64,000 nt of DNA, taken from assembly GCF_032854445.1 (NCBI RefSeq), contig NC_088302.1, forward strand, positions 55,964,237 to 56,028,236, written 5' to 3'. Below are positions 4,401 through 61,400 of the stretch, in pieces. Below the pieces are notes generated by a model. That model was not told where the DNA came from. It saw only the letters and a program-made list of their open reading frames with translations, and ran no database searches. Every line of letters starts with the position of its first letter. The stretch's first letter is position 1. A program made the translations under genes and the position numbers. Source of the DNA: Liolophura sinensis. Taxonomy: Eukaryota > Mollusca > Polyplacophora > Chitonida > Chitonidae.

Positions 4401-7400
4401 GTGTAAAACATCAATAAAATAAAAAAGTAAATAAATTTGATACAAAGTTACTGGAGATTAAAGGACTGAACATCTATAATACCTCATTTAGCTCATATAT
4501 TGACATGGTGTACACAGACACATAATTGGCAAAGAAATGTGTACAGACACATAATTGGCAAAGAAATGAATTTGTTCTTGTTATAAAGTGAAGGTCCTTT
4601 GAATACTGAAACATGCTGTTGTAACCTACCTGCCAGTAGGACAGCATATATGAACGGTTGCAATCAAAGCACAACCGAGATACATATTTTGTTATCGACA
4701 ACGGATATTCTAGCTTGATACACGATTTGATTACTGATTTCACTCAGTCGCCTAGAACATACCTTGCGTCTTTCCAGCATCATGGAAAACTGTAGACTGC
4801 TTCTCTTTGCATGATTCTGTCCTATTTTTGTACTTTATATACTTCCTTCGTCATTTTGGGAACTGGCCTTGTGATTATTGACCTGGAACATCCCCAATCA
4901 CAACTGGTATACGAATGTCTGTTTTGCCACATAGATTCAGTAAGGTACTTTGTTTCTGTTGTAGGAAGTGTTAGCCGCAACCTGTGAGGACCTGTTTACA
5001 GTAGCAATCCGACCCCATGGGATATTTGGACCCCGGGACCCTCAGCTTTTACCTACAGCAGTGAATCTCTCCCAGCAAGGGAAGTTCAAGGTCATCATAG
5101 GGTACGAGGATTGAATGCCTTTATGTTGTTGTGACTGTATGACCTCACAAAGCTCAGCTTTTCCTGCCACAATACCATGTTCAACCCAAAGTTTTCTGAC
5201 ATTTCAGTTGTCATAAACTCAAATGCCTGTCGAAAGGTTAATGTCTGTTATTATATTTAAAACTTGCTTTCTTGTAACAAACTATATTAACACAAAATCA
5301 GTCACCATACCGTCCTAGTGTGCAGTTTCACTGGCTGACAGCTCCAGTTGAGAGACAGTAAATGTAGATGATGATGCCTTAAGGAACAAGGGAGATAACT
5401 TGGCCTGGATCCTGATGTAGTCAGTGTGCTTAGTAATTTGTAAATAATGGTGGTGTACATTTCCTCTGTACTATAATAGCCCTGTTTCTTCCAAGAAGCA
5501 AGGAGTCAGATATGCTGTAATCAATTAACTGCTTATTGTATGACTGCCAAATGATTTTTTTTTTTTTTTTGGATTGGTGTTTTACGCCGTACTCAAGAAT
5601 ATTTCACTTATACAACGGCGGCCAGCATTATGGTGGGTGGAAACCGGGCACAGCCCGGCGGAAACCCACGACCATCTGCAGGTTGCTGGCAGACCTTCCC
5701 ACTTACGGCCGGAGAGGAAGCCAGCATGAGCTGGACTTGAACTCACAGCGACCGCATTGGTGAGAGGCTTCTGGGTCATTACGCTGCACTAGCGCGCTAA
5801 CCGACTGCCAAATGAAGCTGACCACCATAAATATTCCTGAGTGTGTCAAAGAAATACCTTTTTCTTTATATTTTCCTTACAGTGATGGTAAAAACCTTGT
5901 GGACTTCACCCATGTGTACAACGTAGTAGAGGGACACATCCTGGCAGCAGAACACCTATACAACAGCTCTGTGGTATGTGGACAGGTAAGTCACAGTGAT
6001 GGTAAGGGGACTTCACCCATGTGTACAACGTGGAAGAGGGTCACATCCTGGCAGCAGAACACCTATACAACAGCTCTGTGGTGTGTGGACAGGTAAGTCA
6101 CAGTGATGGTAAGGTGACTTCACCCATGTGTACAACGTGGAAGAGGGTCACATCGTGGCAGCAGAACACCCGTCCCACATTTTTGTGGTGTGTGGATAGG
6201 TAAGTCACAGTGATGGTAAGGTGACTTCACCTATGTGTACAACGTAGTAGAGGGTCACATCCTGGCAGCAAACCACATGTACAACAGCTGTGTGGTGTGT
6301 GGACAGGTAAGTCATGTCACAGTGATGGTAAGGTGACTTCACCCATGTGTACAACGTAGTAGAGGGACACATGCTGACAGCAGAACACCCGTACAACAGC
6401 TGTGTGGTGTGTGGACAGGTAAGTCATGTCACAGTGATGGTAAGGTGACTTCACCCATTTGTACAACGTGGAAGAGGGTCACATCGTGGCAGCAGAACAC
6501 CCGTCCCACATTTTTGTGGTGTGTGGACAGGTAAGTCATGTCACAGTGATGGTAAGGTGACTTCACCCATGTGTACAACGTAGTAGAGGGACACATGGTG
6601 ACAGCAAACCACATGTACAACAGCTGTGTGGGGTGTGAACAGGTAAGTCATGTCACAGTGATGGTAAGGTGACTTCACCCATGTGTACAACGTAGTAGAG
6701 GGACATATGCTGACAGCAGAACACCTGTACAACAGCTGTATGGTGTGTCGACAGGTAAGTCATGTCACAGTGATGGTAAGGTGACTTCACCCATGTGTAC
6801 AACGTAGTAGAGGGACACATGCTGACAGCAGAACACCCGTACAACAGCTGTGTGGTGTGTGGACAGGTAAGTCATGTCACAGTGATGGTAAGGTGACTTC
6901 ACCCATGTGTACAACGTGGAAGAGGGTCACATCGTGGCAGCAGAACACCTATACAACAGCTGTGTGGTGTGTGGACAGGTAAGTCATGTCACAGTGATGG
7001 TAAGGTGACTTCACCCATGTGTACAACGTAGTAGAGGGACACATGCTGACAGCAGAACACCCGTACAACAGCTGTATGGTGTGTGGACAGGTAAGTCATG
7101 TCACAGTGATGGTAAGGTGACTTCGCCCATGTGTGGTGTAAGAGCAGGTAAGTCAGGTCACAAATTCATCACTGATAATTAGTTCGTTATTGTTTGTTAT
7201 TGTTATTGAAAGTTAGTGATGTCAGGTGCTGTTAACAGCTTTCTACTGACCAGTGAACAGACTTCTTTGAACTTATCAATGGTGGGGTTGTCTATAACCT
7301 AAGTTCAGAGATTCTGTTTCTCTCCCTGCACAGGGACAACTAGACCCCGATTCGGGTTCACCATTGTTGTTATGTAATACAGGTGTACCTTACCCATTTC

Positions 7401-8024
7401 CTAACTATACTGACCCCTGGCATTATGGAGTTTTGCAGTGAATGAAGATGTTTTTGTTTCCTCTTTTCTAAGTTAGAGATTCTTGTACATTTTCAGAAGT
7501 TTTTGAGCTCAGCTATGTTTCCCTGTAACAGGTTTTCTATAAAGCAGTATCTTGTGGGCGAAATGTTTTTTTGCAAGATGTCATCCATTAAGTCATTAAA
7601 CTTCTACAAATGTAATGGATATCCTAGCGTATATGTGTTACATAAAAATAACAATATAGCGGTATACTTTTGTTTTCGTCCACAGGCTTACAACATTACC
7701 AATGATGAGCCTGTATATTTCTGGACTTTCCTGACACGACTGTTGGTTGATTTGGGATATCGGCCTCCTAAATACCACATCCCTTTCTTCCTTTTGTTTT
7801 ACGTGGCCTTGATCTTACAGTTTGTGTGCAATCTTCTAAGACCCATCAAGGACATAAATCTGTCCTTCTCTCCCATGAAGGTCGCCCTGGCGGGAACTTT
7901 CCACTACTACAGTTGTGAGAAGGCAAAGAGAGACTTTCAGTACAAACCTGTGGTTAGCTTAGAGGAAGGCATAAGAATGACTGTCAAAAGTTTTGAACAT
8001 CTACGAAATCCAAATACATCGTAG
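1301..8024 (+). CDS. NSDHL: NSDHL-like sterol-4-alpha-carboxylate 3-dehydrogenase, decarboxylating (six exons, N-terminus missing)
   Basis: Spliced coding sequence 1301-1459, 2034-2180, 3999-4127, 4965-5101, 5883-5985, 7686-8024, all with GT-AG borders and matching phases, giving about 337 residues. The family is 3-beta-hydroxysteroid dehydrogenase type extended SDR; NSDHL uses NAD(P)+ to oxidise and decarboxylate the 4-alpha-carboxysterol during sterol C4 demethylation at the ER and lipid droplets. Seen in the sequence: a Rossmann GGGGFLGRH nucleotide-binding loop near the start, the LTSSAS catalytic-serine region, the YYTETK active site (YxxxK), the conserved [15 protein letters not shown] segment, the KNLVDFTHV segment, and a C-terminal hydrophobic stretch ([20 protein letters not shown]) typical of the membrane anchor. 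The order and length match vertebrate NSDHL (about 370 aa) except for the missing first residues. The intron after exon 5 carries an amplified copy series of exon 5. Confidence 0.94.
2034..2180 (+). CDS. NSDHL: NSDHL exon 2
   Basis: 49 codons in phase 0 between acceptor TTGCCCAG and donor GTACTG. It encodes [15 protein letters not shown] and [19 protein letters not shown], typical of the SDR segment that follows the nucleotide-binding loop in NSDHL. Confidence 0.92.
2238..2326. repeat. 9-bp tandem repeat (TGTGTTATC type)
   Basis: About ten imperfect copies of a nonamer TCTGTGTTA. Read forward it gives an ICVICV pattern that simply reflects the 9-bp period and is not evidence of coding. Confidence 0.8.
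2646..2836. repeat. 31-bp minisatellite, six copies
   Basis: The unit contains GTGTGAATGTAGCCCACTG followed by ATTAGCTGAACA. Copies differ by only a few substitutions, which suggests recent expansion. It lies inside NSDHL intron 2. Confidence 0.85.
3194..3460 (+). mobile_element. Full-length tRNA-derived SINE (family A) with 14-bp target-site duplication
   Basis: The head carries pol III boxes: A box TGGCTCAGTCGG near 3207 and B box GTTCAAGTCC near 3275. The body contains CCGGCCGTACGTGAGAAGG, CACCATAATGCTGGCCGCC and a tail AATATTCTTGAGTACAGCG with CACCAATCAAATAAATAAA. Perfect 14-bp direct repeats TATTTACAGCATTT flank it at 3180-3193 and 3461-3474. At least nine further, mostly truncated, copies of this family lie in the window. 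Confidence 0.92.
3575..3782 (+). mobile_element. 5'-truncated SINE family A copy
   Basis: Matches the body of the 3194-3460 element from the B-box region (CAATGCGGTCACTGTGAG) to the tail (CTTGAGAACGGCG, AAAACACCAATCAATAAA). It is more diverged, so probably older. Confidence 0.85.
3999..4127 (+). CDS. NSDHL: NSDHL exon 3: catalytic exon
   Basis: 43 codons in phase 0, acceptor GTTGTTGACAG and donor GTAAGT. It encodes [13 protein letters not shown], which carries the catalytic Ser region, [10 protein letters not shown] and [13 protein letters not shown] with the YxxxK pair. Confidence 0.94.
4285..4425 (+). mobile_element. SINE family A 3' fragment
   Basis: Retains CTGTCAGATGGTCATAGG, GGGCTCTGCCCAG, CACCATAATGCTGGCCG and an A-rich AAAACATCAATAAAATAAAA tail. 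The tRNA-like head is missing. Confidence 0.75.
4468..4964. other. NSDHL intron 3, remaining part
   Basis: Apart from a two-copy 29-bp repeat containing CAGACACATAATTGGCAAAG at about 4514-4568, nothing recognisable is seen. Confidence 0.5.
4965..5101 (+). CDS. NSDHL: NSDHL exon 4
   Basis: 137 bp, entering in phase 0 and ending after two bases of a Gly codon. Acceptor TTCTGTTGTAG, donor GTACGA. It encodes [17 protein letters not shown], one of the most conserved NSDHL segments, and KFKVIIG. Confidence 0.92.
5102..5554. other. NSDHL intron 4, unique part
   Basis: Ordinary intronic sequence with a poly-T run at about 5556-5570 that is the tail of the SINE that follows. No exon or other signal is seen. 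Confidence 0.5.
5555..5802 (-). mobile_element. SINE family A, inverted, with 13-bp target-site duplication
   Basis: Read on the minus strand it carries the tRNA-like head with B-box complement TGGACTTGAACTC, the CCGTAAGTGGGAAGG body and an A-rich tail (poly-T at 5556-5570 on the plus strand). Direct repeats GACTGCCAAATGA at 5542-5554 and 5803-5815 flank it. The head is shortened by some 15 bases compared with other copies. It sits only 68 bp upstream of NSDHL exon 5. Confidence 0.9.
5883..5985 (+). CDS. NSDHL: NSDHL exon 5
   Basis: 103 bp, entering with the last base of a Gly codon and leaving in phase 0. Acceptor TATTTTCCTTACAG has a good pyrimidine tract; donor GTAAGT. It encodes [17 protein letters not shown] and [10 protein letters not shown]. 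This exon with its donor is the founder of the tandem array that follows. Confidence 0.93.
5986..7150 (+). repeat. About 107-112-bp tandem array derived from NSDHL exon 5 and its 5' splice site
   Basis: About ten near-identical units plus a truncated last one. Each repeats most of exon 5 (ACTTCACCCATGTGTACAAC, GAGGGTCACAT, CAGCAGAACACC) and ends in GGACAG|GTAAGTCA, an intact strong donor. All copies share a 7-bp deletion against the real exon (GGTAAAAACCTTGTGGAC became GGTAAGGTGAC), which shifts the frame, so they cannot replace exon 5. Copies have only a CACAG before the exon-like part and lack the pyrimidine tract of the true acceptor. The real donor at 5986 is therefore followed by about eleven tandem decoy donors. 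Confidence 0.93.
7151..7685. other. NSDHL intron 5, unique 3' part
   Basis: Non-repetitive sequence between the exon-derived array and exon 6. No further signal apart from the acceptor TTTTCGTCCACAG at its end. Confidence 0.55.
7686..8024 (+). CDS. NSDHL: NSDHL exon 6: C-terminal exon and stop
   Basis: 113 codons including the TAG stop at 8022-8024. It encodes [15 protein letters not shown], the hydrophobic [20 protein letters not shown] segment, [19 protein letters not shown] and the C-terminus [13 protein letters not shown]. No C-terminal KKxx retention signal is visible. Confidence 0.94.
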   Translation, partial: AYNITNDEPVYFWTFLTRLLVDLGYRPPKYHIPFFLLFYVALILQFVCNLLRPIKDINLSFSPMKVALAGTFHYYSCEKAKRDFQYKPVVSLEEGIRMTVKSFEHLRNPNTS

Positions 8025-10110: not shown

Positions 10111-10113
10111 TCA

Positions 10114-10445
10114 CGATGGCTTCAGTGGCCTAATGGTTAGACAGCCTCCGAAGTCGGGAGATCAAAGACTTCAAAAATGGTACTTGTTGCTGCCTCTCTT
10201 GGCGATCAGCACTGAGAGATTTGAGCAAGTAAACATGACTGGTTGGTCAGGTGCCAGTATAATGTGACTGGGTGGGGTGTCATGTCTGGTGTCTTCAGCA
10301 TTACACTTCCGTGGTGGTAGCACTTTGGCAGCATGGACTCGCTCTGCCACAAGAAGACAGTATATGTACACACACCCAATGACTCCTCATCATATGACTG
10401 AAAAATTGTGAAGTATGATGTTAAACTCCAAGCATTCATTCATTT
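10114..10445 (+). mobile_element. tRNA-derived SINE, family C
   Basis: The head GATGGCTTCAGTGGCCTAAT, GGTTAGACAG and GGGAGATCAAAGACTTC resembles pol III A and B boxes. The tail CATATGACTGAAAAATTGTG, GATGTTAAACTCCAAGC and CATTCATTCATT is shared with family B, so the two families appear to share a 3' end but have different heads. Confidence 0.75.
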
Positions 10446-10529
10446 ATTCATTCTTCAAGATCACAGAGAATGATGAAAGCTTCAAGATTGCCTATCCAAG
10501 ATTAAGACAGAACTCATGGCTTGGATTTA

Positions 10530-25400: not shown

Positions 25401-28400
25401 GTGTGGACTTTTGAACTGGTCCTTCAGCAGAGTCAATCTGTCAGTCAGAGATAGACTGATCTACTGAAACAGATACTGGAGAACAGAGACTACACACAGA
25501 AATAGAAATGATAGCAAAGAGTTATAATTATTGAGACGTGTCAACATTTTATTGGAGGTTTGTTAGGTTAGGGAAAAATGGGGATACACTTGTGTCACTC
25601 TGTATTCTTCCACCCGTACATGTTACTCCTAACTGCCATCATATATTTGTGCATGTGAAAAGTGTAACACCAATATATTGACAAGTACACTACGCCCATC
25701 GCATAACTTACCTCATTGGTCGCATATTCACAACACGTTGACCGCAGATGGAGCACAGTGAAGTCTTGACTTGTTCACGACTTGTCTTTTCAAGTGGAAA
25801 CATACCTTGAAGAAAAGTTGTGGCTCACCTGGGGATTGATCCACGTCGTGAAGTCCATGGACGAACTGTTTTTCGGCATTTATGCTGTTTTATTGCAGAT
25901 TTTCTAAAGATAAAACAAATTTCAAGTAAAGCCGCCATTTTCCGCCAGCCTGCCGTTTCATGTTCTTTCTTTTTGTAAAACCAAGAAAAAAAGCATACAG
26001 TGGAACATTAAGAGTGTAAAGTAAAAATATAAGAAGTAAAATAGTTTTACAAGAACCATCCTTTCATTGCCAAAGAAATAAATTACCAGTACAACAAAAA
26101 AAAATCGGACTTGCCCTTGATTTTGTCACTTATGAATGTAAAATGGAAGTTGAGTCATAGTGAAAGTTTTTTTTTCTTGTCACTGTTCTGCTATCTAGCT
26201 TAAATTTTTTAATGTGAATTCTTTTCCCAGAGAGAGTAGTCACTTGTTCACCCACAAAGGAGTAGGAAGAGGAGTTAAAAAGTCGCCCAGCATCGCCATT
26301 GTCTATGTGACTAAACTTGAAGATAATGAAGGCTTAAAGTGTGATACAAGGGCTGTAAAACTTATTTGAAATAAAATACCGAGAGTGTTTTCTTCCCTAT
26401 ATCTATAGGCTGGTCATGTCTCATTTTCATTGTAGGCCCTGCCATTCATATATCTATGGGCTGGTCATGTCTCATTTTCATTGTAGGCCCTGCCATTCAT
26501 ATATCTTTAGGCTGGTCATGTTTCATTTGATGTTATGGCCTATCTGTGTCCAACCTGTGTGTAATAACATGGGGTACATCGTTATTTTTTACACACCTCT
26601 GCAGTTAAAGTAAAATAAAAATATAAGAAGTAAAATAGCTGTACAAGAACCATCCTTTCATTGCCAAAAAAATAAATTACCAGTACAACAAAAAAAAAAA
26701 AATCAGACTTGTCAGTTACCTTTGATTTTGTCACTTTTGAATGTAAAATGGAAGTTGAGTCATAGTGGAAGTTTTTTTTTCTTGTCACTGTTCTGCTATC
26801 TAGCTTAAATTTTTTAATGTGAATTCTTTTCCCAGAGAGAGTAGTCACTTGTTCATCCACAAAGGAGCAGGAAGAGGCGTTGAAAAGTCGCCCAGCATCG
26901 CCATTGTCTATGTGACTAAACTTGAAGATAATGCAGGCTTAAAGTGTGATACAAGGGCTGTAAAACTGATTTGAAATAAAATACCGAGAGATTTTTCTTC
27001 CCTATATCTATAGGCTGGTCATGTCTCATTTTCATTGTAGGCCCTGCCATTCATATATCTTTAGGGTGGTCATGTTTCATTTGATGTTATGGCCTATCTG
27101 TGTCCAACTTGTGTGTAATAACATGGGGTACATCATTATTTTTTACACACCTCTGCAGTTAAAGTAAAATAAAAATATTAGAAGTAAAATAGCTGTACAA
27201 GAACCATCCTTTCATTGCCAAAGAAATAAATTACCAGTACAACAAAAAAAAATCGGACTTGCCCTTGATTTTGTCACTTATGAATGTAAAATGGAAGTTG
27301 AGTCATAGTGAAAGTTTTTTTTTCTTGTCACTGTTCTGCTATCTAGCTTAAATTTTTTAATGTGAATTCTTCCCTATAAGCCAATCGCCGATCACAGGCA
27401 GGCAAGGGAACGTTGCTGGACAAATATACCCATTTTAAGATAACTTCACTTCACCTGTCCCTTATCTGTTTCTAGTTTTCATTGTGTTTAAACTTGGTTC
27501 TGCATGTATAGAAATACATGATTGACTGCAACAGGTTAGACTGGCGAATTCGCTTTGTTTTGACAAAGTGTACCGAGCAGATGGATTCGACTTGATGTGT
27601 GCTCGCTCATTGTTGTGAACCTTTTTCGCAAATCCACAATACATTAAAATGTTTTGGGAAATATATTCACCTCCACTTGGCCCCTTCTTCATGGCTGTGA
27701 AAAATTCACTGCCAGTTGTTGAAAAACGCCCCAGGATGCCTCAGGGATCTCGTAAAAGCCATTGGCTCGATGTGTTGCAGAAGTGTACAGTGAAACATTT
27801 TACAAGGTTAAGATCAGATCATTAAGCTTGACTCGCCCGCAGATCGGTTGCTTAAATCTGCAGCTAGGCCGCAGTGAAATTGCAGCCCAGGTGTGGATTG
27901 ACTGTGTCTGAAGCACAGTTTGGGAGGAAGTTACATGTTGCGTGTACTGTAGATAGGTAAATGATAGAGTTAGGTTGCAGCATGTGGAGTCTAACCTTTT
28001 CTGAAGTGTTTAAGCACTTTCACATGGACTTTTGATGTTTGTTACAGGTCAGAAGGGCGCTATGTGAGGGCAACGTGGTGTGAGCTGCGGGTGGGGGATT
28101 TTGTTCACCTGTCCTGTAACGAGATTATCCCTGCTGACATCCTCCTCCTGCGCTCCAGTGACTCCTCCAACGTGTGCCATATAGAAACCAGTAACATTGA
28201 TGGAGAAACCAATCTCAAACAGCGCTTCACTGTCTCGGACAGCAGCAATTCTGTGAGTACACACTGTCTCTGACAGCAGCAGTACTGTGAGTACACACTG
28301 TCTCTGACAGCAGCAATGCTGTGAGTACACTCTCTCTACAACAGTAGCAATATTTTGAGTACACACTGTCTCTGACAGCAGCAATATTGTGAGTACACAC

Positions 28401-31400
28401 TGTCTCTGACAGCAGAAATGCTGTGGGTACACACTGTCTCTGACAGCACCAGTGCTGTGAGTACACTCTCTCTATAACAACAGCAAGAATGTGAGTACGC
28501 GCTTTCTATAACAGTAGCAATGCTTTAAGTACACATTGTCTCTGGCAGCAGCAATGTTGTGAGTACACACTTTCTATAACAGCAGCAATTCTGTAAGTAC
28601 ACATTGTCTCTGGCAGCAGCAGTGTTGTGAGTACACACTTTCTATAACAGCAGCAATTCTGTAAGTACACATTGTCTCTGGCAGCAGCAGTGTTGTGAGT
28701 ACACACTTTCTATAACAGCAGCAATTCTGTAAGTACACATTGTCTCTGGCAGCAGCAATGTTGTGAGTACACACTTTCTATAACAGCAGCAATTCTTTAA
28801 GTACACATTGTCTCTGGCAGCAGCAATGCTGTGAATACAGGCTCTCTATAACAACAGCAACACAAATCCTATAACATCCAAACAAAAAAGTACACACTCT
28901 CTATAACAGCAGCAGTATTGTTAGTACACACCTTTATAATAGCGGCTTACTTGCCTTCGGTAAGTCGTCTCAGTGAAGCAGCACTAAATAAAAGAGCGGT
29001 GGAAATCTGTCCTGCAACAAGGAGGCACATTACATGTACATGCACCCTAATGATTCCTTCGTCGTCATATGACTGAAAAAGTGTTGAGCACGATGTTAAA
29101 CCCCAAGCACTCACTCACTCACTAGGGCAGGGTCATGTTTTGTAATGGGTCAGAGATCTCCAACTTTTGTATACCCCCAGTGACATTGACCAAGCTGAGT
29201 GGAAGGCCAGTGTGCCATATATAAAAATTATTATGCCATGTTCTGTACAGAATGGTAATTAAATGTTTGACTTATTATGCCATGTTCTGTACAGAATGGT
29301 AATTAAATGTTTGACTTATGCCATGTTCTGTACAGAATGGTAATTAAAAGTCTGACTTATTATGCCATGTTTTGTACAGAATGCTATTAAAAAGCATAAA
29401 CCTTTTCTGCTGCATGGAATGGATGTCCGCTTGAGTTCTTTTCTCGCTCATTTTCGACAGCAAGCCTACATTGGCACACCCACAAACACACGCACATGTA
29501 CTTAATGTACTTGAAAGTAAGTAAAACTTCAGGAAAGGAAAAAAAACAAGCTTAGTGGAAGGTGCCGGTTAAATAATACGTCAAGGACACTAGCCGTCAG
29601 ATATGTATAATAGAGGTAGATTTATATTATATGAGGTGTTGTACCCATGTGTATTATGAGCCTGGGACACTTCTGCTCTGAGATTAAACTTGCTTGGGCA
29701 AGGTGAACACAAACATTACGTTTTTCCCCCGGGCTCTGTCCAGTTTCCTCCCACCATAATGCTGATTGCCATCGTATGAGCAAAATATTCTTAAGTATGG
29801 CATAACAGACCAATGACTACAGGAACGAAAGCATCACTGCTAGTTATTGTGGTAGTTACAAATAATCCATGTAACTCATTTACTGTGAAAACATTATACG
29901 TTGAGCCCTGGTAGATATGGTAGTTGATGCACCAGTTATTTTTATTTAGTTATTATTTTTTTTTTGCAACGTAGGGTTTTACTTATCCATTTTAAGCTAG
30001 CATATAAGAAGGTGAATCAGAAAGTGAAACAAGATACAAGTATTTAGTCTTTGCATGTCATTTATAAAGTTTTTGCAACAGCATAAATGGAAAAAATGAT
30101 TTTTGGCAACTGTATATACAGGTAGCAAGAAATTAATAACATATATACATAATTTCCACTCTAACTTCATAATTATCTCAATACTCTATTTTATTGCTCA
30201 TTCTTTGAGTATCTACAGGTTTTTGTTTACACTATTTTGTGTTCATTATTTTGTGGATCGACAACATCAATCTTTGTAGACTACATGACGTTTTGCACGC
30301 TGTAAACATCTCTGTTGTGTACATTTTCTTGTTAGCCTGTTTAATACTATCCATGTTTGTTGTTTAAATAGACAGATTGCAGTACACTACCACTAGCCAC
30401 TACATTTACTTATGTAAATCAGATATGGTATTTCTGCAGCCCCTAGCTTCCAAGTTCGCTCACTGTGATTGTATAGCCTGATAGTCTCTCGTGGGTGGGT
30501 CACATAAGCATTTCTATCATGCTCATGGTAACAAAGCTGTTGTAGACATTTCAGGGATACTTTGATACAGAAGCTTTTCACACTCCATTTTATTTATTTT
30601 CTGAAAAATGTTTTACTGCTACAATGATAATCGTAGGGTTTGAGGTACCTGAGGCACCTTTAATACTAACCTCCTGTCTTATACCCTCTACCAAACATGC
30701 AGGTGAACAATTCAATTGGAGAATTTTTTTATTATTTCTCATGCATTTGCTGAATATATCTGCACATGTAAGCCTGTCAGCATGTTGTTTGACTGATACA
30801 GAAGTGTTTAAAGATTTCTGGTTTTTATGTTACCGGGTTTACACCTGTTTCCACTCATTGCTGGTGGTCATGTGTTTGTCTGGATGTGTTGGGACTAGAT
30901 GTGGCAGCTGTCTAACCACAACTGTTTAACAAGGATAATGGAGGATTACATTGTCTATGTGGTAATCTCCCCAGCCACAACCAGGCATGAAGTTATGTTT
31001 AATCGTTTATAGCTGGCACGTACATAAGTTAACTGAACAACATGTGTACATCACAGACAGTGACCAAGCCCTAGTCATAACTGATTACTGGATGATCTAA
31101 TGTGAACTGTATTTCAGCTAACATTTGAATTGATTTTTGCTGATTCAGTCACCTCATAGGCAACTTAGGAGTTCGATTTCTTATTTCTTATCAGAAATGT
31201 ATCATCTTACGGCCTTTATTTCCTCCTTTAAGTTCATTTTTACATGTCAACTTTAGCTGAAATACTACACTAATTATTGTTGTGAATTTATTATTTAAGT
31301 TAAAAATAAAATCAGATTTGGTATTTCTCCTGCCCCTTCCAATTTCACTCTCTTTGATCATACAGTCTAATTATTGAGCTTCACTACATCAGCAGAAACA

Positions 31401-43400: not shown

Positions 43401-46400
43401 CAAGAAGGTGAACCTAAGGGTCAAAACTAAGACCTTTCTTCCTCAAGGCCCTAATAACCTAAAGTAGTGGTTAAAGGACAAGCACTATAGCTGACTAAAC
43501 CAGTTGCTGGCCAAACCAGTCGTTGGCCAAACCAGTCGCTGGCCAAACCAGCAGCTGGCCAAACCTGTAGCTGGCCAAACCAGTCGCTGGCCAAACCAGT
43601 AGCTGGCCAAACCAGTCGCTGGCCAAACCAGCAGCTGGCCAAACCAGCAGCTGGCCAAACCAGCAGCTGGCCAAACCAGTAGCTGTTTGGCACCTCACAC
43701 TAGCATGCACAAGGCATGCACTGTACAACTGCAGAAGGAGGACATGAATTATTCATAGGCTGTTTACCTTATTGCATCAAAGCCATGAAAACAGCTGACA
43801 TGTGTAATATCCATTGTCTAGGGTATCACATGTGCACCTGAGCTCCTCATGCCAGATGTCAACTCTTGTGCACTGTAAAGAGTCAAGGCCATCTGCCAAA
43901 GGGTTAAGGTCAAGGAGTACACATTTCTGCTCAGTCCATCAGCCAAAACAATAAAGCGTGAGGAGCAATAACTTGGAGACTGGATAATCTGATCAATAAA
44001 ACTTAAAGTTATTGAAAATTTAACGGATATTGACGGTGAATTTGTTAAAGTGTCTGATACATGTACGTATTAAACTTTGAGCAGCGACATAAATGTCTCC
44101 CTGAGCCATGGCGGTGTGAATAATAAGCACATGTCATAACATAAAAGTAAATAGATAAATAAGAAATGATTGATTGACATATCTATCAGCTTTTAGCAGA
44201 CAATATCTGCTGTTTTAAAGGAATACACCATATCTCTCTATCAAGGTTTTGTTGGCGATGATGATTGTTTTGGTTATAAAATGTGATATAATTGTTAGGT
44301 AGAGGACAAGTGTATAAGTCAATAGCTGTGTACCATTCTAAGTGAAAAGCTGTAATATCCTTATAAGTCAATAGCTGTGATACCCTTACAGGTGAATAGC
44401 TATGATACCCTTATAATTGAATAGCTATGATACCCATATAAGTGAATAGCTATGATACCCATATAAGTGAATAGCTATGATACCCTTATAAGTGAATAGC
44501 TATGATACCCATATAAGTGAATAGCTATGATGCCCTTATAAGTGAATAGTTATGATACCCTTATAAGTGAATAGCTGTGAAACCCTTATAAGTGAATTTC
44601 TATGATACCCTTACAGGTATGAATAGCAGCACAATAGCTGTGTACCATTCTAAGTGAAAAGCTGTAATATCCTTATAAGTCAATAGCTGTGATACCCTTA
44701 CAGGTGAATAGCTATGATACCCTTATAATTGAATAGCTATGATACCCATATAAGTTAATAGCTATGATACCCATATAAGTGAATAGCTATGATACCCTTA
44801 TAAGTGAATAGCTATGATACCCTTATAAGTGAATAGCTATGATATCCTTATAAATGAATAGTTATGATACCCTTATAAGTGAATAACTGTGAAACCCTTA
44901 TAAGTGAATTTCCATGATACCCTTACATGTGATTAGCTATAATACCCTTATAAGTGAATAGCTGTGAAACCCTTATAAGTGAATAGCTGTGAAACCCTTA
45001 TAAGTGAATTTCTATTATACCCTTACAGGTGAATAGCGATAATACCCTTCTAAATGAATAGCTATAATACCCTTATAAGTGAATAGCTATGATACCCTTG
45101 ACCGACCCCGATAACACAGTTAGTCGAGAGTCCACTTCGGGAGCGTTAGATCCAGGGTCAATCCTGGGTCGAGTAACACCTAAGAGGAAGTTCCTCGCTA
45201 GGGCTTCAGCATGAAGGGGATAGTGCAACAACTGGTTGACCGGTATCAGTATAATGGCTTGGGCGAGCAGCTTACTTGCCTTCGGTAAGGCGTCTCCATA
45301 AAGCAGCATAAAAGAATGGTGGAAATCCGTCCTGCAACAGTGAGGCACATTACATGCACTCTAAGGATTCCCTCGTTGTCATATGACTGAAAAATTGTTA
45401 GGTGCAACGTTAAACCCCAAGCACTCACTCACTCACTATGACACCCTTATAAGTGAATAGCTGTGATACGATTCATGTAGATGATGTGTATATTTGTAGG
45501 TCCAGAGACGAAGGCCATGCTGAACAACCGAGGCCCTCGGTACAAGCGCAGCAAACTGGAGAGGAGGATGAATAGGGATCTGGCCTGGTGTGTCGTACTG
45601 CTGCTCTTCCTCTGCTTCTTCTGTGCCATAGGTCAAGTATTATTTGCTCTTGAATATTTCCAAACCTGGAATGTAAGGGAATGTAAAGTGTACAAAACAC
45701 ATGTAGATATATGTGGATTATGTCATCTCTTTGAAACGGGTGCATAAATTGTCTACGTTCTGACTTTTTCATGGGTATCTGTATGTGAGAGGCTTAGACT
45801 GGAACACTTCATATCACACGTTCTTAGCACAAGAGGTCACATGTTCAAATCCACCCCCTGCTTGCTTTGTTTCTGCCTATCCTAACGTCTGATAGGGGAA
45901 CCTAATGGAGGGATTATTGTTTCTCATGAAGTTAGATTAGGAACCATGAGGATGTGTCTGTTACTTGATGACGTTCTGTGTTTCAGGCAGTGATATCGTG
46001 GTTGGGAACCAAGAGGATGTGTCTGTTACTTGATGATGTTCTGTGTTTCAGGCAGTGATGTCGTGGTTAGGAACCATGAGGATGTGTCTGTTACTTGATG
46101 ACGTTCTGTGTTTCAGGCAGTGATATCGTGGTTGGGAACCAAGAGGATGTGTCTGTTACTTGATGTGGTTCTGTGTTTCAGACAGTGGTATCTGGATTGG
46201 GAACAATGAGGATATGTCTGTTACTTGATGTGGTTCTGTGTTTCAGGCAGTGATATCGTGGTTGGGAACCAAGAGGATGTGTCTGTTACTTGATGTGGTT
46301 CTGTGTTTCAGGCAGTGGTATCTGGATTGGGAACGATGAGGATGTGTCTGTTACTTGATGACGTTCTGTGTTTCAGGCAGTGATATCGTGGTTGGGAACC

Positions 46401-49400
46401 GTGAGGATGTGTCTGTTACTTGATGATGTTCTATGTTTCAGGCAGTGATGTTGTGGTTAGGAACCAAGAGGATGTGTATGTTACATGATGTGGTTCTGTG
46501 TTTCAGGCATTGGTATCATGGTTGGGAACCAAGAGGATGTGTCTGTTACTTGATGATGTTCTGTGTTTCAGGCAGTGATATCATGGTTGGGAATCAAGAG
46601 GATGTGCCTGTTACTTGATGACATTCTGTGTTTCAGGCAGTGATATCATGGTTGGGAACCAGGAGGATGTGTCTGTTACTTGATGTGGTTCTGTGTTTCA
46701 GGCAGTGTTATCGGGGTTGGGAACCAAGAGGATGTGTCTGTTACTTGATGATGTTCTGTGTTTCAGGCAGTGTTATCGGGGTTGGGAACCATGAGGATGT
46801 GTGTGTTACTTGATGATGTTCTGTGTTTCAGGCAGTGATGTCGTGGTTGGGAACCAAGAGGACGTGTCTGTTACTTGATGTGGTTCTGTGTTTCAGGCAG
46901 TGATATTGTGGTTGGGAACCAAAAGGATGTGTCTGTTACTTGATGTGGTTCTGTGTTTCAGGCAGTGATATCGTGGTTGGGAACCAAGAGGATGTGTCTG
47001 TTACTTGATGATGTTCTGTGTTTCAGGCAGTGGCATCTGGATTGGGAACTACGCAGATATTTCAGCTGTACCTTTCATCCCCCAGCAGCAGTTTGATGAC
47101 TTCAGTCCACTTTACCAGGGATTTTTGGTCTTCTGGACATATATTATTATATTTCAGGTATTGTATATGTGTCACCATTTCACAGATTGGTGTACACTTC
47201 TGTTATTATTTTCTTGAACATTACCATACAGTATAAAATTCAACACTACATAATGAGTTTTTGAAGCAAATGTGATAGTGAGATGTCTTTTATATTGCCC
47301 CATAAAACTCCAAGCTCGACTGTGTGCGCTGTAAGAAGATTCTGATATGTGTGTGACTGAAGGTAGGCCAAACGTGGAATTCGGTGAACAAACGAACAAA
47401 CAAATTCACAGACTTCAAGTAAACGTTTAGGATAGCTCCTCTTGCTGGCCAACTCCTCTTGACCTGGATGCCAGCTCTGTGGTTGCCATGGTGAAGTTGT
47501 TCAGTTATGTTCACTTACTGATGTGCTGTGGTTTTACACAGATTATTTCTGTTTTTTTTCCTCATGTATTCTAGAACTACAACAAACTAATGGAACAATT
47601 ATCTATATAAGATCATTGAAGTAATTAAAGTGACACACCTGTACTGTTACAGGCAGTGATTCCATTACCTCTCTACGTGTCGCTGGAGGTGATTAAGCTG
47701 GTGCAGGTGTACTTCATCCAGAATGACAAGGAGCTCTACTATGAACCCATGGACAAGAGGTTGGAATGTCGAGCTCTTAACATCACAGAAGACCTGGGCC
47801 AGGTGGAATACATCTTCTCTGACAAAACAGGAACGCTGACAGAAAACCAGATGGAGTTCAAGTCCTGTACGATAGGAGGCATTGACTATCCTCATGGTTG
47901 GTACATCTATCCTCATGGCTGGTACATCTATCCCCATGGCTGGTACATCTATCCCCATGGTTGGTACATCTATCCCCATGGCTGGTACATCTATCCTCAT
48001 GGCTGGGGCATCTATCCCCATGGCTGGTACATCTATCCCCATGGTTGGTACATCTATCCCCATGGCTGGTACATCTATCCTCATGGCTGGTACATCTATC
48101 CCCATGGTTGGTACATCTATCCCCATGGCTGGTACATCTATCCTCATGGCTGGTACATCTATCCCCATGGTTGGTACATCTATCCCCATGGCTGGTACAT
48201 CTATCCCCATGGCTGGGACATCTATAAATGATCGTGTAGTTTTGCAGCATCATGGCCTATGAAATCTTGTATGATAGGCGGCATTGACTCTCCTCATGGC
48301 TGGTACATATATAAATGATCGTGTAGTGTCTCAGCATCATAGCCTATCAAATCCTATATGATAGGCGGCATTGACTATCCTCATGGTTGGTACATCTATA
48401 AATGATCATGTAGTGTCTCAGCATCATAGCCTATCAAATCCTGTATGATAGGCGGCATTGACTATCCTCATGGCTGGTACATCTATAAATGATCTTGTAG
48501 TGTTTTAGCATCATAGCCTATCAAATCCTGTATGATAGGCGGCATTGACTATCCTCATGGTTGGTACATCTATAAATGATCGTGTAGTGTTTCAGCATCA
48601 CAGCCTATTTGATATCAAGAATAATAAAATGGCTTAAAGGTTAAAATAAAAAGGTACCTAATAAAATAATGAGTATTTGCAAATAAGTTTTGTTATTTTG
48701 AGAGGAGGAAGTCAAAATCACTGGAAATGTGGCATTAGGTTCCAGTCTCCGGTTTGAATGCCCTCAATAGCAAGTTGTTTTACTTGTTTTAACCGGCCTG
48801 AATAGCACAATTGGTGGAGCATCCACTTCGGGAGGCAGTAGATCCACAGTCAATCCTTGGTCAGGTCACACCTAAGGCCTTGAAACAGGATCTTCTTCAC
48901 TTGGCATTCTAACATGAAGGGGATAGTGCAATGTCTGGTTGACCCATATCAGTATAATGGCTTGGGTGGGACAGATTACTTGCCTTTATTAAGCCATCTC
49001 AGTGAAGCAGCACAGATAAAAGAGTGGTGAAAGTCTGTCCTGCAACAAGGAGGCACATTACAATCACTCTAAGAACATCTTCGTCATCATATGACTGAAA
49101 AATTAATAAGTACAATGTTAAACCCAAAGCACGCACTCACTCACTCAACCGCCCACCCACCCAGCCACTGTTTCAGTATGAAGCACAAAGAGTTACTGAC
49201 TCAACACGTGTCCAGTGTTTCCTGTAGAAGTATTTGGGATACAGTGGATGATATGTGTATACATACCTTTTGTGAAATATATGCAATAGTTTTGTGGTTC
49301 ACAGTGTTTGGTAGTAATAAGATTTTATCAGTTTTGCCGTATGTTTGTGTTGTACAGGTGAGATGGAGGATTCAGCCAGTGAGATGAGGAGAAGCCGCCT

Positions 49401-52400: not shown

Positions 52401-55400
52401 TAAAGCTATTGTTAGTTTTGTGTAATTTTTCTAAAAGAATGGTTGAGGGTTAGCCCCCCAAAAATGCATCTTAAAGGAAAAGAAAATGACGATTGAGGCA
52501 AGCACCAGTGGAAAAACTGTGTCTGAAAATAGATTTACATGTATTTTTTTCCCCAAGATTTCTGTTTTCTCTGAATTAAATGCAGTCAGATGTTGTGAGG
52601 TATATTTATGATGTTATTGTTGAGTTCACACACTTTTCTCTGTATTTTATGCCAGAATGGCTTTGTCATGCTTTTTCATTACTACGTGAGTAAAGTTTGC
52701 CAGATTTGATTTGATCACATGTTCTTTTTTATTCAGGTTTTAGATCCACAGGACTATGAGATATGGAGACTCAAACACTTGGTGGCTGAGAACAGCATGG
52801 AGGATCAGGAGAAAAAACTGTTTGATTCGGCCTGTAACATCGAGATGGACCTAGAATTGCTAGGTAACCACAGACGTGTAGCCTTTGTGTGGTGGTATTG
52901 AGAGGGCAATGCAGGAATCAAGTGTTCTGAGAGAACATACACCTTCCAAGGTTGCAATATCCTTGAGTTAGCTCCCTTTAGTCCCTGTTTGTTGTTAAAG
53001 AGCAAACAAGCAAACCATTGGCAGACTTTGGAAATGCTACAGTGAAGTCATTATTTATTTACTTTATTGGTGTGTTATGCCATACTCAAGAATATTTCAC
53101 TTACATGATGGCGGCCAGAATTATGGTGGGCGGAAACTGGGCAGAGATGGGTAATACTCATGATCATCTGCAGGTTGCTGCCAGACCTGCCCACTGTAGT
53201 CCCAATAAAACTCAGACATTCCTGGTAAGTTCAAATGTTGTCTAATATATTTCATCTGAATTAGGAATAGTCCCATGTTTCATTTACTGCTGAATAGTGC
53301 AGCATGTTTGTACATCTCTTGATTCTCTGAACAGTTTTATCTGTTAGAGGGTCTGTCATCACACTTTTGTTGGTTTTCATCTGTGTCTTGTTACCTGCTT
53401 CACAGGTGCGACAGGTATAGAAGACAAGCTTCAGGAAGGCGTGCCAGAGACGATAGCTAACCTGAGGAAGGCAGGCATCAGGATCTGGGTGCTGACTGGG
53501 GACAAGCAGGTCAGTGTTGCGCTTGGACAGCTGAACTCACAGCATTGTATGGCAGAAATGTTGAGGAGGATGGCGTGAATCTGTCTCCAGTTCCTGGCCC
53601 TACATGTATATGTACCTGTGGAAAAGTCTTTTACTTGGCTGCTGTAGCCAGTTTGCTCTCTGCTTCCTTCATCCATACACTTGATCAAAGTTGTACTAAA
53701 GGAAACACTGTATTTGCACCCAAAATCTCCCAAAACAGTTCATTTTTACATAATGAAATGTTACTTTGCTGATATCATCCCATACAACTGTAAGTACCTT
53801 CCAAACAAACCTCAAAAACTTTGGCAATTAAGAATCAGACAACAACTTAATCATAGAGGAAATTTTAGGTTTAATTCAGAACTGTTTAGTTCAACTGTAT
53901 GGAAAATGTAGGAGTTTGAGACAGAGAATATAGTGTCAGGACTGTGTAGCAGGGCTCTATATTACGGGCACATGGGTTCTTATAGGCACCCACAGTTTAG
54001 CTGACAGGAGACAGCCATTCAGGTGGCTTTTGCCAGTGCTAAGGTGATCTGTGTGTCAGTTGATTATTAGATCCCTGTGTGACAAGTGCATCCGTTGTGT
54101 TTGACAGGAGACAGCCATTCAGGTGGCTTTTGCCAGTGCTAAGGTGATTTATGTGTCAGGTGATTGTTAGATCTCTGTGTTACAAGTGCACCCGTTGTGT
54201 TTGACAGGAGACAGCCATTCAGGTGGCTTTTGCCAGTGCTAAGGTGATCTGTGTGTCAGTTGATTGTTACATCTCTGTGTTACAAGTGCACCCGTTGTGT
54301 TTGACAGGAGATAGCCATTCAGGTGGCTTTTGCCAGTGCTAAAGTGATTTATGTGTCAATTGATTGTTACATCTCTGTGTTACAAGTGCACCCGTTGTGT
54401 TTGACAGGAGACAGCCATTCAGGTGATGTTTGCCAGTGCTAAGGTGATTTATGTGTCAGTTGATTGTTAGATCTCTGTGTTACAAGTGCACCCGTTGTGT
54501 TTGACAGGAGACAGCCATTCAGGTGGCTTTTGCCAGTGCTAAGGTGATTTATGTGTCAATTGATTGTTACATCTCTGTGTTACAAGTGCACCCATTGTGT
54601 TTGACAGGAGACAGCCATTCAGGTGGCTTTTGCCAGTGCTAAGGTGATTTATGTGTCAATTGATTATTAGATCTCTGTGTGACAAGTGCACCCATTGTGT
54701 TTGACAGGAGACAGCCATTTAGGTGGCTTTTGCCAGTGGTAAGGTGATTTATGTGTCAGTTGATTGTTAGATCCCTGTGTGACAAGTGCACCCGTTGTGT
54801 TTGACAGGAGACAGCCATTCAGGTGGCTTTTGCCAGTGCTAAGGTGATTTATGTGTCAGTTGATTGTTAGATCCCTGTGTGACAAGTGCACCCGTTGTGT
54901 TTGACAGGAGACAGCCATTCAGGTGGCGTTTGCCAGTGCTAAGGTGATTTATGTGTCAGTTGATTGTTACATCTCTGTGTTACAAGTGCACCCGTTGTGT
55001 TTGACAGGAGACAGCCATTCAGGTGGCTTTTGCCAGTGCTAAGATGATTTATGTGTCAGTTGATTGTTAGATCCCTGTGTGACAAGTGCACCCATTGTGT
55101 TTGACAGGAGACAGCCATTCAGGTGGCATATGCTAGTTAGGTGATTTATGTGTCAGTTGGTTGTTACATCTCTGTGTTACAAGTGCGCCTGTTGTGTTTG
55201 ACAGGAGACAGCCATTCAGGTGGCTTTTGCCAGTGCTAAGGTGATCTGTGTGTCAGTTGGTTGTTACATCTCTGTCTTACAAGTGCACCCATTGTGTTTG
55301 GCAGGAGACAGCCATTCAGGTGGCATATGCTAGTTAGGTGATTTATGTGTCAGTTGGTTGGTACATCTCTGTGTTACAAGTGCACCCGTTGTGTTTGACA

Positions 55401-58400
55401 GGAGACAGCCATTCAGGTGGTGTATGCTAGTTAGGTGATTTATGTGTCAGTTGATTGTTACATCTCTGTGTTACAAGTGCACCCATTGTGTTTGACAGGA
55501 GACAGCCATTCAGGTGGCGTATGCTAGTTAGGTGATTTATGTGTCAGTTGATTGTTACATCTCTGTGTTACAAGTGCACCCATTGTGTTTGACAGGAGAC
55601 AGCCATTCAGGTGGCGTATGCTAGTTAGGTGATTTATGTGTCAGTTGATTGTTACATCTCTGTGTTACAAGTGCACCTGTTGTGTTTGACAGGAGACAGC
55701 CATTCAGGTGGCGTATGCTAGTTAGGTGATTTATGTGTCAGTTGATTGTTACATCTCTGTGTTACAAGTGCACCCGTTGTGTTTGACAGGAGACAGCCAT
55801 TCAGGTGGCGTTTGCCAGTGCTAAGGTGATTTATGTGTCAGTTGATTGTTACATCTCTGTGTTACAAGTGCACCCGTTGTGTTTGACAGGAGACAGCCAT
55901 TCAGGTGGCTTTTGCCAGTGCTAAGGTGATTTATGTGTCAGTTGATTGTTAGATCCCTGTGTGACAAGTGCACCCATTGTGTTTGACAGGAGACAGCCAT
56001 TCAGGTGGCATATGCTAGTTAGGTGATTTATGTGTCAGTTGGTTGTTACATCTCTGTGTTACAAGTGCGCCTGTTGTGTTTGACAGGAGACAGCCATTCA
56101 GGTGGCATATGCTAGTTAGGTGATTTATGTGTCAGTTGGTTGTTACATCTCTGTGTTACAAGTGCGCCTGTTGTGTTTGACAGGAGACAGCCATTCAGGT
56201 GGCTTTTGCCAGTGCTAAGGTGATCTGTGTGTCAGTTGATTGTTACATCTCTGTGTTACAAGTGCACCCGTTGTGTTTGGCAGGAGACAGCCATTCAGGT
56301 GGCATATGCTAGTTAGGTGATTTATGTGTCAGTTGGTTGGTACATCTCTGTGTTACAAGTGCGCCCGTTGTGTTTGACAGGAGACAGCCATTCAGGTGGC
56401 GTATGCTAGTTAGGTGATTTATGTGTCAGTTGATTGTTACATCGCTGTGTTACAAGTGCACCCATTGTGTTTGACAGGAGACAGCCATTCAGGTGGCGTA
56501 TGCTAGTTAGGTGATTTATGTGTCAGTTGATTGTTACATCTCTGCGTTACAAGTGCACCCATTGTGTTTGACAGGAGACAGCCATTCAGGTGGCGTATGC
56601 TAGTTAGGTGATTTATGTGTCAGTTGATTGTTACATCTCTGTGTTACAAGTGCACCCATTGTGTTTGACAGGAGACAGCCATTCAGGTGGCGTATGCTAG
56701 TTAGGTGATTTATGTGTCAGTTGATTGTTACATCTCTGTGTTACAAGTGCACCCATTGTGTTTGACAGGAGACAGCCATTCAGGTGGCGTATGCTAGTTA
56801 GGTGATTTATGTGTCAGTTGATTGTTACATCTCTGTGTTACAAGTGCACCTGTTGTGTTTGACAGGAGACAGCCATTCAGGTGGCGTATGCTAGTTAGGT
56901 GATTTATGTGTCAGTTGATTGTTACATCTCTGTGTTACAAGTGCACCCGTTGTGTTTGACAGGAGACAGCCATTCAGGTGGCGTATGCTAGTTAGGTGAT
57001 TTATGTGTCAGTTGGTTGTTACATCTCTGTGTTACAAGTGCACCTGTTGTGTTTGACAGGAGACAGCCATTCAGGTGGCGTATGCTAGTTAGGTGATTTA
57101 TGTGTCAGTTGATTGTTACATCTCTGTGTTACAAGTGCACCCATTGTGTTTGACAGGAGACAGCCATTCAGGTGGCGTATGCTAGTTAGGTGATTTATGT
57201 GTCAGTTGGTTGTTACATCTCTGTGTTACAAGTGCACCCGTTGTGTTTGACAGGAGACAGCCATTCAGGTGGCGTATGCTAGTTAGGTGATTTATGTGTC
57301 AGTTGATTGTTACATCTCTGTGTTACAAGTGCACCCATTGTGTTTGACAGGAGACAGCCATTCAGGTGGCGTATGCTAGTTAGGTGAGTTATGTGTCAGT
57401 TGGTTGTTACATCTCTGTGTTACAAGTGCACCCGTTGTGTTTGACAGGAGACAGCCATTCAGGTGGCGTATGCTAGTAAGCTGATCTCATCAGGTGAAGA
57501 ACTGATAATCATCAATGCCAAAAACAAGGTGAGTAGCACATACACCGCTATAAACACAACTTTGGGTTTGAAGAAAACCAGCTGTTTTTCTGCCTAATCG
57601 TGTCACTGAAATATGTGTGAGGTGTGATTCTGTTACAAAGCTTGCCATTTTTATTTGAATAAAGCTTAAATTTTTCTGGTTCACGTGTATATTTGTGTGC
57701 CATCCATGTCCTAAATTCATAAAGTGAATAGTATGCAAAATTTTGATCTAGAATCAGAAGACTGATATATATGGTGATGTATTTCCCATTTTAGGAGGAG
57801 ACATGTGACTTGCTTCAGCACCATTTAGAACAAATGGAGAAGGATGCGGAGGCTACTAGTGGGGAAAGAACAAACTGGGTGGCCAAGAGAAGATCCCCCA
57901 AGAAGAAGAAAGAACCTCCGAGGTCGGCCGCTCTGATTATTGATGGGATAACTTTGTCGTATGCTCTTCAGCCTGACGTGGACAAGGCCTTCTTACATCT
58001 GGCCATGAGGTGTTCGTCTGTTGTCTGCTGTCGGTCTACTCCTATACAGAAGGTATAGCCACACACCTGTATTAAGGTTACATGCCTGTATTTAGGTCAC
58101 TTACCTGTATTAAGGTCACACACCTGTATTAAGGCCACACACCTGCAATAAGGTCACACACCTGTAATAAGGTCACACACCTGTGTTAATGCCACACAGT
58201 TGTGCTAAGGCCACACACCTGTGCTAAGGCCACACACCTGTATTAAGGTCACATGCCTGCATTAAGGTCATTTACCTGTATTAAGGTCACACACCTGTAT
58301 TAAGGCCACACACCTGTAATAAGGTCACACACCTGTAATAAGGCCACGCATCTGTAATAAGGCCACACACCTGTATTAAGACCACACACCTGTATTGAGG

Positions 58401-61400
58401 ACACACACCTGTATTAAGGCCACACACTTGTAGTAAGACCACACACCTATATTAAGGCCACACGTTTGTATTAAGTCCACACACTTGTTACAAGACCACA
58501 CACCTGTATAAAGGCCACACACCTGTTACAAGGCCACATACTCCAACAAGGCCACACAAGTAATATGGCCACACACATGTAATAAGGCCACACACCTGTA
58601 TTAAGGCCACACACCTGTATCAAGGCCATACACCTGTATTAAGGCCACACAACTGTATCAGGGCCACACACCTGTATAGCTTTGTGGTCATCTACAGAGT
58701 TGGTTGTGTATGAAAGTCTGGTTAACATACTTGAAAAACATGCATCAGAAAACGAATGCCTTGCAAGAGGAAGTCCTTGATCACACTCTGTGATTTGGTA
58801 CAGATTTGCAGAATTCAGCAAAATTGTAACTTGTGAATTGTAGATGACAGCTTCAGATTTTCACTGGATGCCTCAAATTTGACAAAGTCAAACGTATTTC
58901 AAATCGCCGCACAGAATATCTTGTCTGTGGTAATACTTGTACTGATGTATATTTGTAGTTGACTTCCACGTAATACAACTAATTCATTTAAGAAGTTCTG
59001 TTGTTTAGCACAAATACTTATTCATATTCTTATATTCTTTGGTACTTAGCATTTTACCATTTTATTAATCTTGTGTTAACAGGCTGCTGTGGTAAAATTA
59101 GTGAGAGATGAACTCAAACAGCTCACACTGGCTATTGGTAAGTTGTAAACATTTGATAAATCTACCAATTTCAATTATACAACACACAAAAAATAACAAT
59201 ACAAAGACTAGTCCTAAAATAATTTACATGCAGATGTTGACAAAGAAGAGCTGCTGTACTGTAGGTACTGTGATGCTTCAGTGTCAGCTAAACTTTATGG
59301 TACAACTTTCAAAAAGTATTTCAGGTCATTTTCTCATAAATAAAGCAAGATAATTTATAGGAAGTGTTGCTAAAAATTGATTTGCTAGGTGATGGTGCCA
59401 ATGACGTGAGCATGATCCAGACCGCTGATGTTGGCGTGGGAATCTCTGGCCAGGAGGGCATGCAGGCAGTGATGGCTTCGGACTTTGCTATGGCTCGCTT
59501 CAAGTTCTTGGAGAGACTGTTACTGGTACATGGGCACTGGTGCTATGACAGGCTCGCCAGATTCGCTCTGTATATGTTCTACAAGAATCCAGTAAGTAAT
59601 AGGTTCTCACTGGGGGGGACTCTCAGTGGGGAAGTTATCACTCATGTTGTCGTTTGATTGCTGTTCAAAACTTCAGACTTTTTACTGAGCCAATTTGGAG
59701 GGTGAAATTAAACCTCATAAAGTTACTGATAAAGTTTTCTTGTCAAAATTTAGGAATATATGAATTATTATTATAACTGGTATATATATATATATATACC
59801 AGTTTTCATAAGTGATTTCACATTGTTATAGATATTCATTGTTATAGGTATTCATTGTTAATATTTATATTCTTTGGTACAACATTTCGACTAATGGTTT
59901 GCCTTCATGTCAGTGTTCTTAATTGCATTCTGTCTTTTTCAGCTGCCGAACTTCACGATCTTCTGGTTCCAGATCTACAGCGGGTTTTCTGGCTCGATCA
60001 CCATGGATCAGTACTACTTACTCCTCCTCCACGTTCTCTTCACAGCCTTTCCTCCTGCTGTCAATGGCGTATTTGACAAGGACGTCTCCGCCAAGACGCT
60101 CCTTACCAGACTGGACCTGTACAAAGTCGGCCAGGAGGGACGGGTACGGGACTTCATCTCACTTTATTGTAACAGTTGTAATGTTTGCTTATTTGGTGAA
60201 TTTGAAGACATCTGGATTATCATGAAAAGCAACAATTTAAACAAATGTTACATGTTGTTAGAAAAGAATAATCAATCTTTGTCACATTTTGTCATCTTGA
60301 TGATTCACAAGTCAGCATCATGTATTCCCTTGTTGTGTAATTATGTTCTGTGTTTTCAGAGTTACACAACGGTTCTATTTTGGATATATATATTGGAGAC
60401 CTGGCTTCAGAGTATAGCACTACATTTTATACCTCATTTGGTAAGTATATGTGTACAAGTACATTTTATACCTCATTTGGTAAGTATATGTGTACAAGTA
60501 CATTTTATAACTCATTTGGTAAGTATATGTGTACAATTTTATACACTGTACCTCATTTGGTAAGTATGCATGTACAATTTTATGCCTCATTTGTTAAGTA
60601 TATGTGTACAATTTTATACACTGTACCTCATTTGGTAAGTATGTGTGTACATTTTTATGTCTCTGTTAAGTATATGTGTACAATTTCCTTTACTTTTGCC
60701 AGTATTGAGGAAACATTTGAAAATGAATATAACCTACATAAGTGATGTGGAAACCAAATTGCAGAAGAAAAGAAGAAGTTAATTCATTTGCAGAGATCTC
60801 TTGTTAGGTTCAGACATATTTACAAAAATTAATGTTTTTTTCAAGATCAGCGTCACAGTACATTGTACATTTGTCAGCCTACATGTAGTGCATTCATGAA
60901 CAAATGTGTCTTATTTTTGGGTTTTGGGTCGATATTAGAATAAAATGTGATAGTTTATGCTCATTTTTGGGGGATTCCGGAAATTCTGTGTAAATGTTCA
61001 GAAATAATCAAACTTACCTGGAGGTTGACAGACGTTTTGCTGAAAGGTTTCCTGAAGTGGGTTTATTGTTCTTTTCTGTTTGAGAATCTCATCTAGCATA
61101 TGAACAGAATCTGAATTGATTATGACTCCATAAAGTTTCTGATTAAAATAGGCAGTGATAACTTCATATCCTTGATGTCCCTGTAGTATCGTTGTGTTGT
61201 TGTTGTTGTAGGCCTATGCTGGCAGTGATGTGGGATTGTGGGAAGTAGGGACCACAATGACGGTCAGCCTCATTTTAACCATGCTGCTGTTCTTAGGGAT
61301 CGAAACCTGGTGCTGGGTAAGTGGTCTCCCAGAGTCTGATCTATGTAATAACCTGTAATGATTCTAGTGCAGAGTAAAGTTGTCTCCCCTATGTCACTGC

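Follow-up and report, generated by a model that had tools for sequence, protein, structure and literature searches.

Six minisatellite arrays in a 64,000-nucleotide stretch of the genome of the chiton Liolophura sinensis (contig NC_088302.1, forward strand; the whole stretch is hereafter called the window) each span a splice junction together with its flanking exon and intron, as delimited with Tandem Repeats Finder (TRF). The species was earlier known as the Hong Kong chiton and has since been renamed (PMC12441733). Two genes lie on the + strand of the window, one NSDHL-like and one encoding a P4-type phospholipid-transporting ATPase, and the junctions spanned are the exon 5 donor of the former and the exon 2, 7 and 18 donors and exon 6 and 13 acceptors of the latter. 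These arrays, and those sampled elsewhere in the same genome, are mirages, that is, minisatellites in which a splice junction happens to lie within the unit. We consider it probable that minisatellites can originate at almost any site in an intron, and that those at junctions are tolerated since splicing still works with a single copy flush with the exon. The simplest reading is that of a repeat-rich genome that tolerates arrays at junctions rather than aiming them there.

The sequence of events may have been as follows. Slippage or unequal exchange would create a tandem duplicate of a short segment, nearly anywhere in a gene, and the array would then expand and be homogenised. If that initial segment included a junction, its copies would inherit the splice signal along with some exon sequence. 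Selection would require only one intact and used copy, flush with the exon, and the remaining copies would be tolerated decoys within the intron. As only the exon-flush copy would be selected, donor arrays should extend downstream and acceptor arrays upstream, into the intron, and this agrees with the positions of the six arrays, which an earlier note on this DNA had already described as lying after the exon at donors and before it at acceptors.

Six junctions and their predicted splicing

The same note had reported six arrays of a junction with flanking exon and intron, and TRF recovered all of them at nearly the same positions; the junctions agree, although our models number as exons 13 and 18 those that the note called 14 and 19. 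All lie on the + strand, and their copies differ (76-94% TRF match). The splice junctions of the window were located from reading frame and consensus. Six exons were found for the NSDHL-like gene from 1301 to 8024 (the first exon was not sought), and when joined they give a 337-residue frame whose residues 2-230 match the sterol-4-alpha-carboxylate 3-dehydrogenase of PDB 6jkg (E=6.6e-101). The ATPase gene runs from 16039 to past the window end, and its 19 exons found here, joined via the exon-proximal copies, give an open frame of 1057 residues, of which 43-1057 match TIGR01652 (phospholipid-translocating P-type ATPase, 1071.9 bits). The matches give the family P4-ATPase only; the label ATP10, taken over from the earlier note, is consistent with that subfamily. 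With predicted splicing via the exon-flush copy the frame is uninterrupted at each of the six mirages.

The NSDHL mirage (5902..7134, TRF 112 bp x 11, units of 107-112 bp) follows the authentic copy of exon 5 (5883..5985, 103 nt). Each unit has an acceptor-like start (acag/TGATGG), a 96-nt version of exon 5, a donor (/gtaagt) and a spacer, whose length is 11 nt at the beginning of the array and 16 nt further on. Spacers of 11 or 16 nt between copies are presumed too short to function as an intron. The junction search found eight extra copies, 8/8 with GT. Compared with the authentic exon, the copies of exon 5 in the stretch 5883-7134 are short by 7 nt near the start. Since the unit holds the whole of exon 5 and an acceptor-like start, it is a tandem exon copy and not a donor copy, so that the earlier description of a repeated exon 5 donor holds for the junction spanned and falls short for the unit.

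In the ATPase gene, exon 2 (28048..28252) is followed by a mirage at 28228..28860 with a 34-bp unit and a 68-bp higher-order unit (TRF), in which 15 of the 18 extra copies carry GT. Both acceptor mirages keep the signal throughout: the one before exon 6 (mirage 45940..47049, exon 47027..47157; TRF 65 bp x 17) has AG in 16/16 extra copies, and the one before exon 13 (mirage 54002..57485, exon 57448..57528; TRF 97 bp x 35.5) in 35/35. At exon 18 (60360..60440) the mirage at 60421..60686 has units of about 39/75 bp and five extra copies, four of them with GT. A 19-bp array adjoining the exon 14 donor (58058..58677, +) was left out of the junction-spanning count.

Exon 7 (47653..47896) carries DKTGTLT and ends in a weak donor (CATG/gttggt, score 3.9). 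Its mirage (47886..48608) consists of a 21 bp x 16 array (47886-48225) and then an 87-bp array (48201-48608), which also duplicates the exon end; among its 19 extra copies, 6 have GT and 13 do not. The 21-bp array encodes stop-free (PHGWYIY)n in the exon frame. Because these units are open in the exon frame, several copies are in principle usable in frame, and going by the reading frame the array is a possible in-frame variable repeat of the ATPase. The claim that the exon-proximal copy alone keeps the frame fails at the 21-bp copies of exon 7.

It is highly improbable that the arrays are artefacts of assembly. Tandem arrays are prone to assembly errors, and the HiFi coverage is 14x according to the available text of PMC11068029. 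However, with a mean length of 8,347 bp in the same text, the HiFi reads can bridge even the largest of the six arrays (3.5 kb); moreover, the copies are not identical, as noted above, and like arrays recur at other loci. Even less can be said for introner-like mobile elements bringing splice sites along, which we regard as exceedingly improbable: the units do carry splice signals, but they hold exon sequence of their own local gene, and the NSDHL unit, the sole unit searched and by a search that skips very common words, had no match outside its own locus.

Placement at junctions and elsewhere

The mirages recur beyond the window. From the assembly (609,464,459 bases, 632 contigs), a first sample was taken by Pfam family, with several exon matches close by and repeats not looked at; it comprises 20 genes, 9 for chaperonins and 11 for myosins, with 103 exons and 205 junctions in 242,006 bases. 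Of the 131 Pfam matches, 103 fell within these 20 genes and one further match was not included, and the donor of CCT_e exon 1, whose end had been extended wrongly, was removed from the junctions. The replicate comprised 82 kinesin and class I tRNA synthetase exons with 180 bp on each side (164 junctions), obtained from 156 matches, of which 92 were kept by hand as stop-free and off the profile ends and 82 of those 92 used. Ten of the 86 arrays in the first sample span a junction, and in the replicate 4/164 junctions are spanned (loci L050, L112, L082 and L084). Pooled outside the window this amounts to 14/369 junctions of the Pfam-chosen genes, or about 1 in 26. The window itself, with 6/48, is a rich example.

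The earlier note held that six cases were more than chance, and that a mutational process favouring splice junctions might lie behind them. With 31% of the window occupied by arrays, chance alone must put some of them across junctions. For the expectation, each array was collapsed to a single unit, and the units were placed with uniform probability along the collapsed sequence; a correction for guanine-cytosine (GC) content weighted the seeds to allow for array units being richer in GC (factor 1.26, derived from the window and first sample and applied to the pool). In the window 6/32 arrays span a junction when 1.76 are expected (P=0.006), and together with the first sample 16/118 when 6.2 are expected (P=0.0004, uniform null). 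The window was chosen for this feature. Outside it the excess was small and did not replicate: the replicate had 4 spanning arrays vs 3.1 expected (P=0.37), and with GC correction the pooled figure was 14 vs 8.76 expected (P=0.062). The pooled excess of 1.6- to 2-fold is unproven.

Several results weigh against our reading of tolerance. The first sample alone had 10 spanning arrays vs 3.8 expected (P=0.004, uniform null), and the comparison of TRF arrays with random placement that the earlier note had proposed, run here on gene samples, gave 14 vs 6.95 expected for the pool outside the window under uniform placement (P=0.012), which is the part of that test in favour of an excess, the GC-corrected value above being the part against. 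The window and first sample together, with the window selected, still gave 16/118 vs 7.9 when GC-weighted (P=0.0035). The mirage counts are also minimum values, since an exon that Pfam did not detect carries no annotation, as with a myosin donor array in L020, and the replicate excluded Pfam hits with internal stops and thereby possibly lost some mirage exons. Finally, GT was kept at 0.970 vs 0.895 for random base pairs within the unit in 11 donor arrays (P=0.036, uncorrected), in a test from which the exon 7 array and few-copy arrays were excluded and whose donor result exon 7 would weaken.

The placement of arrays at junctions was also approached independently of TRF, by counting local copies of the 24-mer centred on each junction. 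Within 4 kb, at least two extra copies were found at 16/256 junctions vs 2.6% of 8,380 collapsed intron positions, divided into 12/128 donors and 4/128 acceptors (window genes included). With at least one extra copy the result was hardly different from the control (16/256, or 6.2%, vs 4.8%). The antisense (0/256) and other-gene (0/251) controls were zero, which indicates that the 24-mer matches are real local copies. A second version used a one-sided 168-bp window and a control of 2.15% of 31,363 positions. In the first sample it gave 8/103 donors (P=0.0018 vs 2.15%) and 2/103 acceptors. In the replicate, where a usable splice site was available in 78/82 donors and 80/82 acceptors, it gave 2/80 acceptors and 0/78 donors, a test that missed two donor mirages found by TRF, L084 since the copies have diverged and L082 since the donor used lies downstream of what is probably the true donor. 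Pooled outside the window, 12/364 junctions were positive vs the 2.15% control (P=0.097), with 8/181 donors (P=0.043) and 4/183 acceptors (P=0.56).

A process seeding minisatellites preferentially at junctions, mainly donors, with transcription-coupled nicks or R-loops at 5' splice sites as one conceivable cause, would account for the first sample and for the donor values of the 24-mer test in the first sample and the pool, and it is in line with the 14 donor vs 6 acceptor mirages among all 20, window included. The difference between donors and acceptors was, however, compatible with chance (P=0.12 over the 20 mirages; P=0.26 in the 24-mer test), the array units had no clear strand skew with transcription (63 positive and 47 negative of 118, P=0.15), and neither the replicate, with 0/78 donors in the 24-mer test, nor the GC-corrected pool nor the 24-mer pool of all junctions upheld the excess. 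A mutational preference for splice junctions has thus not been established, and we regard it as unlikely. It is quite unlikely, too, that in chitons an active process starts minisatellites preferentially at the 5' splice sites of transcribed genes and has left donor mirages in their thousands from which new introns could form. Among the 102 arrays that span no annotated junction, those with a donor score of at least 8 were 10 sense and 6 antisense, a weak difference that comes partly from unannotated exons.

Two broader candidates were rejected. Strong enrichment at junctions was supported by the first sample and not by the replicate. General attraction of arrays to exons was rejected since, apart from the junction-spanning class, the bins of distance between array and exon were at 0.69-1.45x expectation in 118 arrays, those of the window among them.

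Splice signals in the extra copies

Over the mirages of the window and the samples, copies are 21-140 bp apart and number up to 50 extra per mirage. GT or AG was kept in 195/217 extra copies (19 of 20 mirages; none found in L082), yet the predicted splice form is uninterrupted, which supports tolerance, one of the possibilities raised in the earlier note, indirectly. As many as 147 extra copies score at least as high as the authentic site, 91 of these in three arrays. With so many equally strong copies, the spliceosome must choose among like sites, or errors are tolerated.

The other possibility raised, a benefit of repeated splice sites, was not supported. Selection for the repeats, whether to provide spare sites or to generate variants of the protein or its isoforms, could explain the GT retention in the 11 donor arrays and the open exon frame of the 21-bp array at exon 7. 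Against this, use of the next copy would add a multiple of three bases in only 5/19 cases, about one third and chance-like, so no frame preference was detected among the next-copy inserts; AG retention in 3 acceptor arrays was not significantly higher (P=0.27, calculated like the donor value of P=0.036 with columns inside the array); and most of the extra exon 7 copies lack GT. An earlier constraint test, in which variable columns and again the exon 7 and few-copy arrays were excluded, had P=0.38 in 11 donor arrays and 0.28 in 4 acceptor arrays. Selection of this kind seems very improbable, and tolerance of decoys beside one functional copy continues to be our preferred reading.

Other features and known systems

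After overlapping TRF rows were merged, the window has 35 arrays with a coverage of 30.8%. Coverage is 0.9% in the intergenic part (8025-16038) and 22% and 38% in the gene bodies, in this single window. Past exon 19, a long 23-bp-based repeat array with strong strand asymmetry (GC skew -0.61 across 62001-64000) occupies 61854-63901. In the first-sample locus L020, the uncounted donor array lies at 890-1933, and its unit end reads HYIKQGGDHK and then gtgagt, as in a myosin-like exon that Pfam did not report. In L014, 5695-5799 and 6791-6886 are neighbouring versions of one myosin exon, perhaps mutually exclusive. One contig (C99) has seven COX1 matches about 15.5 kb apart and is apparently a concatemer of the mitochondrial genome. 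The mitochondrial gene order is COX3-ND3-ND2-COX1-COX2-ATP6 on one strand and ND5-ND4-ND4L-CYTB-ND6-ND1 on the other. This gene order agrees with the mollusc order, and an amphioxus source of the genome, initially considered since mirages occur there, was rejected.

The set of duplicated donors and acceptors described here is a natural one for studying how the spliceosome selects among near-identical sites, and it also bears on whether mirages feed intron gain. Gene annotators should be aware that decoy exon ends are present in this genome.

Two known systems resemble these arrays in part. In intron gain by tandem genomic duplication or internal gene duplication, segments carrying AG/GT are likewise duplicated, as far as the available text of PMC4974935 and PMC3443670 goes, and this route to new introns has been proposed for mirages in the accessible part of PMC3087553. 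Unlike such duplication-born introns, the chiton copies sit within existing introns, and no new intron is shown. The dual-specific AGGT sites of polyubiquitin, in the part of PMC10809524 available, are likewise arrayed in tandem where one repeat meets the next; there, however, coding repeats are spliced in variable number, whereas in the chiton 14/19 next-copy inserts would shift the frame.

The closest likeness is with the mirages of amphioxus, described in the available text of PMC3087553 and PMC3902484 from Adh3, the globins BflGb6 and BflGb9, troponin C and PGBD5. These are minisatellite-like duplications of exon-intron boundaries, both 5' and 3', with many copies carrying splice signals; the Adh3 and globin data are said there to suggest that mirages leave regular splicing undisturbed, and mirages are proposed as a source of new introns. 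Our literature search, with partial coverage and with subscription papers mostly outside it, found mirages only from amphioxus and none named in molluscs or chitons. The chiton arrays have the same features, with tandem units that contain the boundary (6 in the window and 14 outside it), at both 5' and 3' boundaries, and with AG or GT in many and not all copies. They differ in that the host is a mollusc, that six occur in one window besides the 14/369 junctions elsewhere, and that splicing is predicted. Junction-spanning minisatellites, until now a peculiarity of lancelets, are thereby shown to be frequent in a mollusc genome, at about 1 in 26 of the sampled junctions.

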